5,693 nt of DNA, taken from Acetobacteraceae bacterium (GTDB lineage Bacteria; Pseudomonadota; Alphaproteobacteria; Acetobacterales; Acetobacteraceae). The DNA is taken from positions 1-5,693 of the forward strand of contig PLSZ01000465.1 of NCBI GenBank assembly GCA_003164305.1, read 5' to 3'. Of the stretch, positions 1-4,719 are shown one piece after another. A program made the position numbers and the translations under genes. The notes under the pieces were generated by a model. That model was given only the letters and a program-made list of their open reading frames with translations, made no database searches and was not told the DNA's origin. Each line of letters begins with the position of its first letter. Within the stretch, counting starts at the first letter, position 1.

Positions 1-41
1 TCGAGCACGCGAATTCCGGACAGAGGTAGTTTCCCGCTCAC
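1..41 (-). CDS. CaiB/BaiF-family CoA-transferase, N-terminal fragment (runs off window)
   Basis: Starting at the GTG at 39-41 the minus strand reads MSGKLPLSGIRVL followed by an incomplete GA- codon (Asp or Glu). The pattern L-P-L-x-G-I-R-V-L-[DE] is the characteristic start of CaiB/BaiF (type III) CoA-transferases, which move CoA between carboxylic acids. A GAGG lies at 46-49, only 4 nt before the GTG, so the ribosome site is closely spaced. An ATG at 42-44 is followed directly by TGA, which makes the GTG the only sensible start. It lies 56 bp after the selenoprotein stop, on the same strand, with a hairpin between them. Only 13 full codons are visible, so the family call rests on this short signature and should be treated as probable. 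Confidence 0.6.
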   Translation of the reverse strand, partial: MSGKLPLSGIRVL

Positions 42-64
42 ATTGCCTCGCGTTTCATGAAAGG

Positions 65-93
65 CGCGGACCGGGGTTTCGCCCCGGCCCGCG
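65..93 (-). terminator. GC-rich hairpin after selenoprotein gene, probable terminator
   Basis: The arms CGCGGACCGGGG (65-76) and CCCCGGCCCGCG (82-93) form a 12-bp stem with one G-U wobble around a 5-nt loop. On the minus strand the stem begins 4 nt after the selenoprotein TAA (98-100) and is followed by CCTTTCAT. The run of U is therefore only three long, weak for a classical intrinsic terminator. It could also be an attenuator or mRNA-stabilising hairpin between the selenoprotein and the downstream CoA-transferase. Confidence 0.6.
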
Positions 94-97
94 TTCG

Positions 98-1048
98 TTA
101 TTCGGCCGTTTTCGCCGCACCAGCACCCACGCGTTGCTGTTTGGCGATTTCCTTGTTGGCATCGAACTCGGCGCGCCGCCGGGCGATTTCCGCGGCGGAG
201 AGTTGTTCGATGTTGCTGAAATCCAGCTTCCAGTCGGGATTGTCGCTCCACCGCAACGGAGATTGCACGGTGGTGCGCGGACCGGGGGCGGCTTCCAGCA
301 CGCGCAGCGCCAGTTCGATGGTGAACGCCTGCGAGGCCTCGTCGTGCGGCCGGCCGGCGGAATTCCCCAGCGGGAAGTCGCTGAACAGGAACCGCGGCAC
401 GCCGCAGAATTCCACCAGGTCCTTGGCGCAGCCCATGATCACGGTCGGGATTCCATTCGCCTCAAGATGCCGTGCGATCAGACTCACGGTCTGATGACAG
501 ACGGGTCAATTGGCGACCAGAATCGCGGCGTCGGATCCGGCGGCGCGGACATAAGCGAGGACTTCGGCCGCGTCCTGCTCGATGGTGACTTTCTGGCTGC
601 GGTTGGTCGGCGCGCCGATGAACTCGGGCGCCAGCGAAGCCATGCGGCCTGCCGCCACCAGCCGTTTCAGTTGCTTCAGCGGGAACCAGGTGTTCACGTC
701 GGTAGCGGTGGTGTGCTTGCGGTCGATGCCGATATGGGAAATCCGCAGGTCAGGTTCGCCCTGGATGCTGTCGGTGTAGACGCGGTAGAATTTCGCGGCC
801 GCGTTGTAGGGCGCGCCAGGTCCCTGATCGCCCTTGTCCGGCTGATACGGCGCCGCGGTGGTGATCAACGAGATCCGGCTGTCCGCCAGCGGCTTTGTCA
901 ACGGCGTGAACGGGACGGTGGTGTACTGAGCCCAACGATACGGTTTGCCGTAGCCGAGCGTCTGGTAATAGGTACTGATGCGATGCCGATACGGAATTGG
1001 CACGTCGTGTTCGACGGCGAATTCCAGATCGTCCATGCGGTCCGCCAT
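98..1048 (-). CDS. GrdB-like selenoprotein (glycine/sarcosine/betaine reductase selenoprotein B family) with in-frame UGA as selenocysteine
   Basis: Read through the UGA at 506-508, this frame gives 316 residues with selenocysteine at position 181. The upstream half contains the family pattern around residues 102-150 (RISHIGIDRKHTT, then TDVNTWFPLKQLKRL, then APEFIG), and a DAAILVAN strand leads into the motif U181-P-V-C184. The downstream half continues with the expected helix (residues 188-198), GIPTVIM, then CGVPR and DFPLGNSAGRP (about 215-235). In the GrdB/PrdB families of amino-acid reductases the selenocysteine attacks the substrate and is reduced again through a neighbouring thiol; U181/C184 is the inferred redox pair here. 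Further cysteines are C207 and C215. The protein is shorter than clostridial GrdB and no GrdA or GrdC partner is in view, so the substrate is unknown. The ATG at 1046-1048 is preferred because GAGGAAGGG (1056-1064) lies 7 nt upstream; the upstream in-frame Met at 1066 overlaps that site. The alternative, a pseudogene with a nonsense mutation, is unlikely given the UxxC position and the SECIS. Confidence 0.88.
470..504 (-). promoter_or_regulatory. Bacterial SECIS element for selenocysteine insertion
   Basis: Directly after the UGA the mRNA can fold into a hairpin. The lower stem CCGU (504-501) pairs with ACGG (473-470). After an internal loop (CUGUC against CGC), the upper stem AUCAGAC (495-489) pairs perfectly with GUCUGAU (483-477) around a 5-nt loop CGUGA (488-484). 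The apical loop begins 18 nt after the UGA and has G at its second position. This fits what is known of bacterial SECIS elements: a short stem close to the UGA, a small loop with an early G, and binding by the elongation factor SelB. The element lies inside coding sequence. The 7-bp perfect upper stem is unlikely to be a chance coincidence at this spot. Confidence 0.85.
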
Positions 1049-1165
1049 GGTGTGACCCTTCCTCATTGATAACGAGCCGCCCCCAGGCCGGGGCGGCGCG
1101 ACGGCCAACGAACCACCCGGCGAGGGTGGCGTCGAACCGGCGGGACCTATGCTTATTCCGTCCCG
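1049..1165 (-). promoter_or_regulatory. Hairpin-rich leader upstream of the selenoprotein gene
   Basis: Three consecutive inverted repeats lie upstream of the selenoprotein start: CGGGAC/GTCCCG (1141-1146 with 1160-1165), CCACCC/GGGTGG (1113-1118 with 1124-1129, 5-nt loop) and GCCGCCCC/GGGGCGGC (1076-1083 with 1090-1097, 6-nt loop). The last ends 27 nt before the ATG and is followed by the Shine-Dalgarno GAGGAAGGG at 1056-1064. If transcription starts upstream of 1165, the mRNA would have a structured 5' leader. No known riboswitch class is recognised. A very weak promoter-like pair (GTGACG, then TAAGCA 17 nt later on the minus strand, about 1148-1176) overlaps the first repeat, so the true start is uncertain. 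Confidence 0.35.
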
Positions 1166-1627: not shown

Positions 1628-2551
1628 CTATTCGGCGGCCATGTTCGGCGTGAACTCGAGCGGCAACCCCCTGTGCCCGGTCAGCTTTTCGCCTTCCTCC
1701 CACATCTCGAACGCCCGCTTCTTCAGCTTCGGCACCACGGCGGCGACGAGATCGGTGTCCATCTCGGCGGCGATCCCGGGATAGCCGGCCCGCTCGATCA
1801 TCGCCGGCAGCTTGCCCTTCTCGATTTGCTGGAACGTCCACGCCAGGGGATCGTCGATCACCGTCAGGTCCCAGTTGATCCGATGGTTCTTGTTGCGCGG
1901 GCCATAGTGGTAGTGTGCGTTGTCCCAGAAACAATCGAACGCCATCAATTCGGTTTCCTCGATATAGGCCTTGCCCTTGGCGCCGCCGATATCGGCCAGC
2001 ACGTGCACCGCCAGGCCGCCGTCGCCGTTCTTCAGCCGGCGCATCTCAAGGCCGAAGCGGATGTTGCCGGCCTCGAAGATTTCGGTGCCGCGGTTGTGCT
2101 TCACGACATTGCGCTTCGAGATGTAGGTCTCACGCGCGCACGCCTCGACCTGGGGCAGCACGTTCGCCACCTTGGTCATGTCGGTGGCCATGGCGACCGC
2201 CGCGTAACCGGCGCGCGACAGCATCGGCCGCAGCTTCGTGCTCAGCATGCGCAGCGTCCAGCCGATCGGGTTGCCGTCGGTGATCGGGTCCATGCGGCAA
2301 TGGATGCCCATCCCGCCGCCAACGCGCAGCGCCGTCGTCAGCTCGGGGTTCTCCGGGCCGTAGACATAGGCGCGCTCCAGATCGAAACAGTTGAAGCGCA
2401 GCAGTGAGGTTTCCTTGTCGGCGACATCGGCCACGACGTCGATCGAAACGCCCTGATCCGTGTGATCCTCGCAATTGGCGTCCCACAACTGGTGCCGGAC
2501 GACGAAGGTCAGCGGCTCGGCGGTAAATCTGAAGCCCTGGGATTGCGGCAT
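1628..2551 (-). CDS. Unrecognised protein made of two tandem copies of one domain
   Basis: The 307-residue product has no signal peptide or membrane segment and looks cytosolic. I do not recognise a named family. It clearly contains an internal duplication: residues about 8-140 and about 159-283 align. The best anchors are LLRFNCFDLERAYVYGPEN (50-68) with LMAFDCFWDNAHYHYGPRN (202-220), and AGYAAVAMATDMTKVANVLP (114-133) with AGYPGIAAEMDTDLVAAVVP (255-274). Shared features are a hydrophobic-F-x-C-F segment, a Y-G-P-x-N turn, an acidic D-P or D-x-P loop, a W-T helix and an R-A-G-Y motif. Conserved Cys, His and Tyr (C55, Y64, C207, H213, Y214) could bind a ligand or metal, but this is a guess. 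The ATG at 2549-2551 has AGGAG (2561-2565) 9 nt upstream. It lies 35 bp after the flavin oxidoreductase gene, so the two are probably co-transcribed and may act on the same compound. Confidence 0.85.
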   Translation of the reverse strand: MPQSQGFRFTAEPLTFVVRHQLWDANCEDHTDQGVSIDVVADVADKETSLLRFNCFDLERAYVYGPENPELTTALRVGGGMGIHCRMDPITDGNPIGWTLRMLSTKLRPMLSRAGYAAVAMATDMTKVANVLPQVEACARETYISKRNVVKHNRGTEIFEAGNIRFGLEMRRLKNGDGGLAVHVLADIGGAKGKAYIEETELMAFDCFWDNAHYHYGPRNKNHRINWDLTVIDDPLAWTFQQIEKGKLPAMIERAGYPGIAAEMDTDLVAAVVPKLKKRAFEMWEEGEKLTGHRGLPLEFTPNMAAE

Positions 2552-2586: not shown

Positions 2587-3609
2587 CTACGAAGGAGGCG
2601 CGCTGTTCGCAAGAGTGGCTGGCGCGCAGGCGCGGATGGCGGCCTCGAAACGGGCTTTGGCGTCCGGGCCGCGGGCGAAGGGGCTGATGATCGGCAGGTC
2701 GATGCCGGATGCGCGATACGCTTCGATCCTGGCGCGGCATTGCTCCGGCGTGCCCGACACGCTGGTGGCGTCGATCATCGCGTCGCTGACGGCGCGCTCG
2801 GCCGATACAGTATCGTGACGAGCCCACGCTTCGGCGATGGCGGCGGCTTCGGCGGCGAAGCCGTGTTCCGCCATCATCCGGTTATAGCGTGGGAAAAACC
2901 CACAATAGAACGCGATTCCTGGGCGGAGCGCGGCGAGCGCCGCTTCTCGGGTTGCGCTGACCGAGGCCGGTAACAGCGACGCGATTTCGATCCGGGCCGG
3001 GTCGCGTCCGGCCTTTGCGGCGCCTTCCGCCAGATGCACGCGAGTTTGGGCGGCGGTGCGCAAGGTGCTGCGCGTCAGGATGATGCCGTCGGCGATTTCG
3101 CCGCACAACGCGATCCCTTTCTGGAATACCGCGGAGAGGTAGACCGGCACGTCGCGGTGGCGCGGCGTGTACCAAAGATCGAAGTTCTCGATGCGGATGG
3201 TCTCGCCTTTGAAGCTGACGCGGCCTTCGCGGATCAGCTCGCGGACGATGGCGACGGTCTCCCGGGTGCGGGTCAGCGGCTTGCTGTAGACGACGCCGTG
3301 CTCGGGTTCGACCTGCGCCTTGTGACTGGAGCCGAGGCCCAGAATGAAGCGGCCGCCGGACAGCTCGGCGATCGTGGAGGCGGCCATGGCGATGGTCGGC
3401 GCGGTGCGAACGAAGACGCTGCTGATGCTGGTGCCGAGCTGGATGCGCGACGTGCGGGCCGCGCAGGCGGCGAGGATGGCGAACTGATCGCCGCCGTGGC
3501 CCTCGGCGACCCAGGCGGAGCAGTAGCCGAGGCTCTCGGCGAGGACGACGAGATCGACGATGTCGGCTGGGTTGGGGCCGCCTGAAATGGCGATGCCGAT
3601 TCTGGACAT
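2587..3609 (-). CDS. LLM-class flavin-dependent oxidoreductase (luciferase-like monooxygenase superfamily)
   Basis: The 340-residue product has the TIM-barrel signatures of the bacterial luciferase-like superfamily, which includes FMN-dependent monooxygenases and F420-dependent reductases such as Mer. Visible landmarks are the first strand RIGIAISGG (3-11), the D-L-V-V-L-A-E-S-L-G-Y helix (19-29), the second-strand region SAWVAEGHGGD (31-41), RIQLGTSISSVFVRTAP (55-71), the diagnostic segment ELSGGRFILGLGSSH (82-96), VPVYLSA (154-160) and the C-terminal GTPEQCRARIEAY (286-298). Length is normal for the family. The ATG at 3607-3609 is chosen because the protein starts exactly at the first barrel strand and GGAG (3618-3621) is 8 nt upstream; the open frame extends much further upstream but without homology and overlaps the toxin-antitoxin genes. 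Substrate and cofactor (FMN or F420) cannot be told. It is probably the first gene of an operon with the duplicated-domain protein. Confidence 0.92.
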   Translation of the reverse strand: MSRIGIAISGGPNPADIVDLVVLAESLGYCSAWVAEGHGGDQFAILAACAARTSRIQLGTSISSVFVRTAPTIAMAASTIAELSGGRFILGLGSSHKAQVEPEHGVVYSKPLTRTRETVAIVRELIREGRVSFKGETIRIENFDLWYTPRHRDVPVYLSAVFQKGIALCGEIADGIILTRSTLRTAAQTRVHLAEGAAKAGRDPARIEIASLLPASVSATREAALAALRPGIAFYCGFFPRYNRMMAEHGFAAEAAAIAEAWARHDTVSAERAVSDAMIDATSVSGTPEQCRARIEAYRASGIDLPIISPFARGPDAKARFEAAIRACAPATLANSAPPS

Positions 3610-3719
3610 GCGAGGGGCTCCGGTTTGGGCGAGGGGGATTGAACACCGGATGGCGTTGTGGGGCGAGGTGTGGGTCGGGACGATTGATCTTGTTTCGCGT
3701 CCCATGTGAGCGCAGTCGA

Positions 3720-3735
3720 TGTCTCGTGTGAGACA
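3720..3735. promoter_or_regulatory. 16-bp inverted repeat, probable operator of the RES-Xre operon
   Basis: TGTCTC-GTGT-GAGACA is a perfect 6-bp inverted repeat with a 4-bp centre. It sits 16 bp upstream of the preferred antitoxin ATG. A second TGTGAG (3705-3710) lies 22 bp, about two helical turns, before the TGTGAG in the repeat (3727-3732). Xre-type antitoxins of this class repress their own promoter, so this is the best candidate binding site. Because the spacer is shared with the divergent oxidoreductase gene, binding could influence both directions. No clear -10/-35 pair could be assigned. Confidence 0.5.
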
Positions 3736-3751
3736 GGCCGGGAGGCCAGCA

Positions 3752-4198
3752 ATGGGTGTTGTCGCGGACCCCGTATCCAAGGTCCTGAGGATCAGGGCGT
3801 CGGGGCCATTCCCGCTGATGTCGGCGGTCGAAAAGGGGCTGCCGCTCAGGTCCCTGGACCGGGTTGTCCACGCGCTCGCGCCATCCGACAGCAAATTCGC
3901 ATTCCAGATCGTTCCGCGCGCGACCCTGGCTCGGCGCCGTAAGGCCTGGGCGACCGCCAAGGATCGCGCGGAAGGCCGGCTTTCGGCGGACGAGGGCACG
4001 CGGCTGGCCCGGCTCGCCAGCGTCTGGGCCATGGCGCTTGAGGTCTGGGGGTCGGAGGAAGCGGCAAGGCGGTTTATGTTCGAAACGCATGGGTTGTTAC
4101 ATGGCAGGCGGCCGGTCGATCTCGTGCTGGAAAATGAACTGGGGCGGCCAATCGTGGAAGGCGTTCTGGGCCGGCTGCGGTACGGATCGGCCGTGTGA
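3752..4198 (+). CDS. Xre/MbcA/ParS-family antitoxin of a RES-Xre toxin-antitoxin system
   Basis: The 148-residue protein has the two-part layout of this antitoxin family. A helical DNA-binding region (about 30-88) includes the typical FQIVPRATLARRRK and the LSADEGTRLARLASVW helix. A C-terminal toxin-binding DUF2384-type domain (about 90-148) carries AMALEVWGSEEAARRFM, then PVDLVLENELGRPIVEGVLGRLRYG; the C-terminal tail is known in this family to plug the toxin active site. The ATG at 3752-3754 is preferred over the upstream in-frame ATG at 3719 because GGAGG (3741-3745) stands 6 nt before it, and because the longer form would place the operator-like repeat inside the coding sequence. The stop TGA (4196-4198) overlaps the toxin start GTG, giving translational coupling. 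Confidence 0.9.
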   Translation: MGVVADPVSKVLRIRASGPFPLMSAVEKGLPLRSLDRVVHALAPSDSKFAFQIVPRATLARRRKAWATAKDRAEGRLSADEGTRLARLASVWAMALEVWGSEEAARRFMFETHGLLHGRRPVDLVLENELGRPIVEGVLGRLRYGSAV

Positions 4199-4719
4199 GC
4201 GCGCAAACGCTCGATCGGGTGCTGACGGCGTACCGGATTGGCGATCCGGCGGGGGCTTACCCGATTTTCGACGCGACCGGCTCGCGGCTATGGCCTGGGC
4301 GGTGGAATACCGGCGTCAGTCCGATGATCTACAGCAGCGAGCACTACAGCCTGGCGATGCTGGAGAAGTTGGCGCACGGCAATGGGCACATGCCGCCCCA
4401 CCAACACTGGATCGCGGTCACGATCCCTTCTTGGGTGTCGTGCGAGGTGTTTTCGATCGCGCATCATCCTGGGTGGGACGCGGAGGATTGCCTCGTGGCG
4501 AAGGCGTACGGGGAGGCGTGGCGGCGGTCGATGCGGTCGTTGCTGCTGATGGTGCCGAGTGTGGTGGCGCGGATGGAACGGAATGTGCTGATCAATGATG
4601 GGCACGCGGAGGTGGGGCGGATCACGTATGGGCTGCATGAGCCGATCTGGTGGGACAGGCGGCTGTTTCCGGTCTCTCCGGCGGGTGGCGGGGGAGCGAG
4701 GCGGCGTGGGAGGGGGTAG
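4195..4719 (+). CDS. RES-domain toxin of a RES-Xre toxin-antitoxin system
   Basis: The 174-residue product is a RES-domain protein. Members of this family degrade cellular NAD+ (hydrolysis or phosphorolysis) and resemble ADP-ribosyltransferases, causing growth arrest when free of antitoxin. The naming residues are visible: Arg14 in AYRIGD, Glu57 in SLAMLEKLAH and Ser122 in VPSVVARMERN. R-W-P-type pocket sequence is seen as GSRLWPGRWNTGVSPMIYSS (29-48). The usual end WWDRRLFPVSP (about 155-165) is followed by a short Gly/Arg-rich tail that is not typical and probably dispensable. Translation starts at GTG 4195-4197, which overlaps the antitoxin stop as GTGA, so synthesis depends on translation of the antitoxin. 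All key residues are present, so the toxin appears intact. Confidence 0.93.
   Translation: MSAQTLDRVLTAYRIGDPAGAYPIFDATGSRLWPGRWNTGVSPMIYSSEHYSLAMLEKLAHGNGHMPPHQHWIAVTIPSWVSCEVFSIAHHPGWDAEDCLVAKAYGEAWRRSMRSLLLMVPSVVARMERNVLINDGHAEVGRITYGLHEPIWWDRRLFPVSPAGGGGARRRGRG

Follow-up and report, generated by a model that had tools for sequence, protein, structure and literature searches.

The stretch of DNA analysed here (the window, 5,693 nucleotides) carries on its minus strand a gene that almost certainly encodes a single selenoprotein of 316 residues, in which the UGA at 508-506 is read as selenocysteine 181 (Sec181). Judging from sequence comparison, we give about an even chance to a fuller reading, in which the product is a selenoenzyme of the PrdB/GrdB superfamily whose Sec-dependent reductive cleavage is coupled to CoA-thioester chemistry. 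The features relevant to this reading are the following.

98..1048, minus strand: PrdB-like selenoprotein gene, 316 codons plus a TAA stop (PrdB model 88.3 bits, GRDB Pfam model 18.1 bits)
506..508, minus strand: in-frame UGA, the predicted Sec181 of U-P-V-C (of 81 aligned sequences, 46 have TGA here and 35 have TGC/TGT)
1056..1064, minus strand: ribosome-binding-site-like GAGGAAGGG, 7 bases ahead of the ATG, read in the sequence
477..495, minus strand: SECIS-like hairpin with a 7-bp stem and the loop CGTGA, spanning bases 11-29 after the UGA
1..41, minus strand: start of a class III CoA-transferase gene, 13 codons from GTG 41-39, encoding VSGKLPLSGIRVL and cut by the window edge

As the sequence-only reading had anticipated, plain ORF calling reports two fragments, 506..1108 and 98..487 on the minus strand. 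They lie in a common frame that is split solely by the UGA at 508-506, with no other stop between them. Translation from 1048 to 98 with TGA as U yields 316 residues, with U181 within VANUPVCHQT, C184 closing the U-P-V-C motif and a TAA stop at the end. TGA is also the ordinary stop of an antitoxin gene in the same window (4196-4198), indicating that TGA has not been generally reassigned. On the opposite strand, a 355-codon antisense frame (2-1069, plus strand) is open across the entire selenoprotein gene because of the high G+C codon use, and it disturbed the initial gene clustering.

We examined codon 181 in the relatives. A genome scan confirmed 260 of them, and the best 80 of these 260 loci, together with the window, gave the 81 sequences analysed. 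Codon 181 is TGA in 46 of the 81 and TGC or TGT in the remaining 35; no other codon occurs there, and the cysteine homologues that the sequence-only reading had proposed to look for are thus present, with no non-redox residue in any sequence. This count omits a weak second match at the start of L030 (13-372), a UGA PrdB-like paralogue with 38% identity over 122 residues and with UPLD in place of UPVC. When residue 181 was masked and the 81 proteins were placed on a quick tree, 6 changes of the Sec/Cys label were needed, with starred branches forcing at least 3. An alignment of 67 proteins (that of the window and 66 of the 120 matches listed) shows C181 (U shown as C), P182, C184, H185, Q186 and C207 to be invariant.

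Conservation continues past the UGA. Over the first 110 codons 3' of it, the window protein is 80–91% identical to nine UGA relatives, and dN/dS over these codons is 0.05–0.28 in eight window-relative pairs, the ninth pair being saturated. The low ratios together with this identity indicate that purifying selection persists beyond the UGA, with the relatives taken as non-independent samples.

In a set of 120 genomes of one family, the protein is present in 22, and UGA at codon 181 is found in 6 after a check of the DNA; in 3 of those 6, the UGA occurs only in a 40–44% identical paralogue. Eleven genomes had first shown one TGA. The DNA was inspected in nine of them, and the other two (G001 and G005) correspond to the loci L001 and L005, examined earlier. 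An internal UGA was rejected in G017, G021, G036, G051 and G078, where the DNA has Cys181 and the aligned part is free of internal stops; these five were counted as Cys forms, and we infer that the flagged TGA is their terminal stop.

The stem of the SECIS-like hairpin pairs bases 11-17 after the UGA with bases 23-29, leaving a five-base loop. This loop is CGTGA in 46 of 46 UGA forms versus 2 of 35 Cys forms (best 80 of 260 loci and the window), and a mean of 6.76 of the 7 stem pairs is formed in UGA genes versus 4.09 in Cys genes. Among the 46 UGA forms, pair 12/28 is C-G in 35 and the compensating T-A in 10, with one form mismatched there; pairing fails in 8 forms at 11/29 and in 2 at 15/25. 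Three further UGA PrdB-like paralogues, 40–44% identical to the window protein (L108, L109 and L110), contain the CGTGA hairpin too, two of them with A-T, not G-C, at pair 15/25. For the serine within the hairpin, all 46 UGA genes use AGT, as does none of the 35 Cys genes at the same place, and AGT accounts for 25 of the 577 serine codons counted elsewhere in the 46 UGA genes; the codon choice is otherwise difficult to explain. Because the relatives are not independent, p values for the hairpin and for the codon choice overstate the evidence. Folded alone, the window sequence of the hairpin region was no better than shuffles, and a search of Rfam gave no match for the hairpin.

The sequence-only reading had made its case depend on selenocysteine machinery in the genome. 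This holds in the genomes of UGA relatives, the scope of our search, which covered the 15 genomes that carry 16 of the 80 loci (12 with the UGA form and 3 with Cys as the fetched copy). selA scored over its cut-off in 12 of 12 UGA genomes, and selB and selD were each found in 11 of the 12; none of the three genes was detected in any of the 3 Cys-copy genomes. The UGA genome with neither selB nor selD matches (G002) is a draft MAG in which selA and tRNA-Sec are present. The best tRNA-Sec match reached 69–81 bits in all 12 UGA genomes and less than 48 bits in the 3 Cys-copy genomes; all 15 passed the Rfam tRNA-Sec threshold, the best scores of the Cys-copy genomes resembling the secondary matches of the others. 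In the 120-genome set, selA occurs in 6 of 6 UGA genomes versus 34 of 114 others, and selB was found in the four of the 6 that were newly searched. G021 and G078, both with Cys181, gave no selA or selB matches.

Four of the 12 UGA genomes (G001, G003, G005 and G009; L115-L122) encode two divergent SelB proteins, one type 50–59% and the other 62–69% identical within itself, with about 38–43% identity between the types. The second type adjoins a UGSC-like selenoprotein gene in G001 and G005. UGSC-family matches with an in-frame UGA occur in 14 of 16 genomes (L130-L159), with up to 10 in G008, and their GSCSSWSFHD subtype is found in the four two-SelB genomes and in G011 and G012. The apical loops of 30 UGSC hairpins contain GT, which sets them apart from the CGTGA found in the PrdB-like genes. 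We looked at the idea that each SelB paralogue decodes its own SECIS class. The UGSC and PrdB-like hairpins do differ, but both kinds occur together in genomes where one SelB was detected (for example G004, G006 and G007).

The two fragments in the plain ORF list could also be explained by a pseudogene or a sequencing error, the UGA being the true stop of a dead gene. We give this explanation practically no chance, as it stands against the same-codon UGA in 45 of the 80 fetched loci (best 80 of 260), the conserved protein past the UGA, the hairpin, the alternation with Cys and the machinery. The view of the sequence-only reading that the gene makes one selenoprotein with a UxxC motif, through a frame broken only by UGA, is borne out by the alternation, the hairpin, the selection past the UGA and the machinery in relatives.

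Its description of the protein as GrdB-like is replaced by a PrdB-like one. Among NCBIfam models, PrdB (TIGR04483) scores highest with 88.3 bits, followed by GrdH (34.5), GrdF (29.1), GrdB (27.9) and the UGSC family (16). These scores lie below the cut-offs for PrdB (300), GrdB (TIGR01917, 602.2) and the UGSC family (NF041046, 125), and Pfam GRDB (PF07355) gives 18.1 bits against a cut-off of 22, although PF07355 is a precomputed label on many of the homologues listed. The profiles thus favour PrdB/GrdB yet fall under the cut-offs, so that the protein resembles the family and is neither PrdB nor GrdB by curated tests; from these similarities, it probably shares descent with PrdB and GrdB. The protein is indeed shorter than GrdB, as had been stated, but this is better understood as the architecture of PrdB, extended at both ends. 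The PF07355 match runs to residue 179, immediately ahead of the Sec and at model position 346 of 347, as would be expected if UGA-truncated proteins had been used to build the public model.

The top profile, together with the name 'D-proline reductase (dithiol) PrdB' that several databases give to homologues, would be consistent with an orthodox D-proline reductase PrdB whose pyruvoyl PrdA is encoded elsewhere in the genome. We consider this very unlikely: the score of 88.3 bits is far from 300, the neighbours are not Prd genes, and PrdA was matched in 0 of the 15 relatives' genomes, in a search that matched in no control genome either. GrdA gave the same outcome (0 of 15 genomes, with no match in any control genome), so that neither search is taken to show absence from the genomes. 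The lack of nearby GrdA and GrdC partners that had been pointed out earlier is confirmed within the window, which contains no GrdA, C or D. The substrate of the PrdB-like selenoprotein is likely to differ from those of the clostridial reductases.

The gene order suggests a partner of another kind. In the window, the GTG start of the CoA-transferase gene lies 56 bases past the selenoprotein stop; its product VSGKLPLSGIRVL resembles the N-terminus of the L005 CoA-transferase, KLPLEGIRVLDIG, and its identity rests on this similarity of 13 codons. Among the best 80 of 260 loci and the window, a class III (CaiB-type) CoA-transferase gene lies directly downstream on the same strand in 55 of the 77 loci with room for it, that is, with at least 600 bases downstream (L013, L028, L050 and the window being excluded). 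The pairing is found in 39 of 44 UGA loci versus 16 of 33 Cys loci; of the 22 loci in which it is missing, 17 are Cys forms. The start of a CoA-transferase gene is visible in L050, which was counted as the 56th adjacent match. Full-length neighbours match PF02515 over its cut-off (L005 396.4, L006 409.5 and L059 398.6 bits). Loci that combine the UGA form with an adjacent CoA-transferase gene include L059 (Reyranella massiliensis 521) and L061 (Reyranella aquatilis), both from cultured strains. Two CoA-transferase queries (E <= 1e-10) recovered the 56 adjacent matches and no other CaiB-like match in 1.0 Mb of locus DNA, which shows that the pairing is not due to commonness of CaiB genes there. 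In 9 of the 56, the start codon of the CoA-transferase overlaps the selenoprotein stop (offset -3). No CaiB match was found beside the UGA paralogues L108-L110.

The CoA-transferases of the window's clade (n=8; L001-L007 and L009) share at least 75% identity with one another and 28–37% with the other 47, which are themselves 46–98% identical to that of L059. L008, the first branch outside within the window's clade of ten, has the other CoA-transferase type. From these comparisons, the window's clade appears to use a different CaiB subfamily, and the pairing appears to have outlived a swap of partners; that a partner could change subfamily and stay in position speaks for a functional link. Both a Sec copy (L001) and a Cys copy (L034) of the PrdB-like gene occur in genome G001, and the CoA-transferases adjoining them belong to different subfamilies. 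Among CoA-transferases of solved structure, those nearest are named formyl-CoA transferase, CaiB/BaiF family protein and succinate-hydroxymethylglutarate CoA-transferase, and these names do not single out a substrate. As far as we searched, namely in open papers, no description of the selenoprotein–CoA-transferase pairing was found, and we regard it as new to that extent.

The selenoprotein could instead act without a CoA step, as a UxxC redox protein for thiols or peroxides in general, the CoA-transferase being merely co-transcribed and serving a separate step. UxxC is common among thiol redox selenoproteins, according to a table in the available part of PMC13188914, and 22 of the 77 loci have no adjoining CoA-transferase. 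Against this stand the adjacency in the other 55 loci with no other CaiB-like match in the flanks, the fact that the pairing persists with a second CaiB subfamily, and a best profile, PrdB, that describes a reductase of a small molecule. We consider the explanation possible, albeit rather improbable.

The upstream genes of the window belong to no gene family common to at least 4 loci in the clustering. Upstream of the selenoprotein gene and on the same strand lie a luciferase-like (LLM) oxidoreductase (2587-3609, minus strand) and a two-copy DUF7700 protein (1628-2551, minus strand); for DUF7700, no report was found in a search of open papers. A RES/Xre toxin-antitoxin pair occupies 3719-4719 on the plus strand, where the antitoxin TGA (4196-4198) overlaps the toxin GTG at 4195. 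An imperfect palindrome at 1247-1358 accounts for a chance Rfam match; its two arms, CCCCGACTTGATCGGGGGATCGACCGG and a near complement of it, are rich in G+C, and it may represent a dispersed repeat. Genes that by eye resemble dipeptide-type ABC transporters recur in the flanks of 23–33 loci.

In D-proline and glycine reductases, the Sec of the substrate-binding subunit participates in reductive cleavage. This role is summarised in part in PMC13188914, as far as its available text goes. An AlphaFold model of the window protein (mean pLDDT 83.2, pTM 0.86) places residue 181 between a strand (174-178) and a helix (184-197). Comparison with relatives supports decoding of the UGA at 508-506 as Sec181, aided by the downstream hairpin, within one protein of 316 residues. 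For its action we propose the following mechanism. Sec181 may form a redox pair with Cys184 at the strand-loop-helix turn of the model. The selenolate would attack the substrate carbon bearing the leaving group, Cys184 or the invariant Cys207 would resolve the intermediate, and a cellular thiol donor could re-reduce the Se-S bond, by analogy with what has been proposed for D-proline and glycine reductases. Judging from gene order, the class III CoA-transferase encoded by the next gene would either load the substrate acid as a CoA thioester beforehand or capture the product acid afterwards. We hold reductive Sec-Cys catalysis to be quite likely, and the arguments for and against its coupling to CoA chemistry, drawn from gene order, to be evenly balanced. 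More tentatively, the two genes might form the unit of an alphaproteobacterial selenium pathway, in which the acid is placed onto CoA and Sec cuts a C-N, C-O, C-S or C-halogen bond beside the thioester, with no pyruvoyl cofactor.

In several databases, the relatives are named after clostridial amino-acid fermentation, a role for which the evidence here gives no support. As for the selenoprotein, it probably belongs to a group that surveys had already recorded. Should the CoA-transferase link be real, this widespread group (235 'PrdB' in one ocean survey, from the available text of PMC2398784) would gain a testable chemistry, and PrdB/GrdB reductases would extend beyond pyruvoyl-dependent systems.

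GrdB, GrdF and GrdH are the substrate-specific protein B of glycine, sarcosine and betaine reductase. The window protein resembles them (PF07355, TIGR01917, NF040794, NF040795) through weak profile matches of 28–35 bits and the UxxC site given in the available part of PMC13188914, but it falls under all cut-offs, is shorter, and lies in a window without GrdA, C and D. It is closer to PrdB (TIGR04483), its best profile match (residues 47-255), for which the same partial source lists a UxxC site. It differs from PrdB in being longer by about 45 residues at the N-terminus and 60 at the C-terminus, and in that the usual next gene is a CoA-transferase rather than a prd gene.

A looser likeness links the protein to the UGSC family (NF041046), since the U of UGSC is aligned on the U of UPVC (hmmscan E 0.009; hhalign E 0.00026, probability 42%); that model has 147 positions, about half of the window protein, and the alignment of the two profiles suggestively but not conclusively indicates a relationship.

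The Sargasso Sea and GOS surveys reported 42 and 235 'PrdB' UxxC selenoproteins, respectively, with Cys homologues (PMC1088965, PMC2398784, in the text available). Set beside them by description, the window family probably belongs among these marine proteins; the link to a CoA-transferase is absent from the available survey text (PMC1088965, PMC2398784).

Finally, FarB of Cloacibacillus, a GrdB-family, predicted Sec protein and fluoroacetate reductase, is reported to cleave a C-F bond (available text of PMC10838667). Unlike what we propose here, FarB works with the GrdE-like FarE, in an anaerobe, and we liken the two by description, not by sequence (PMC10838667). Both are nevertheless PrdB/GrdB-type predicted Sec proteins, and since the substrate of FarB is not an amine and a C-F bond is cleaved, the PrdB/GrdB type is, on that partial source, not limited to amines (PMC10838667).
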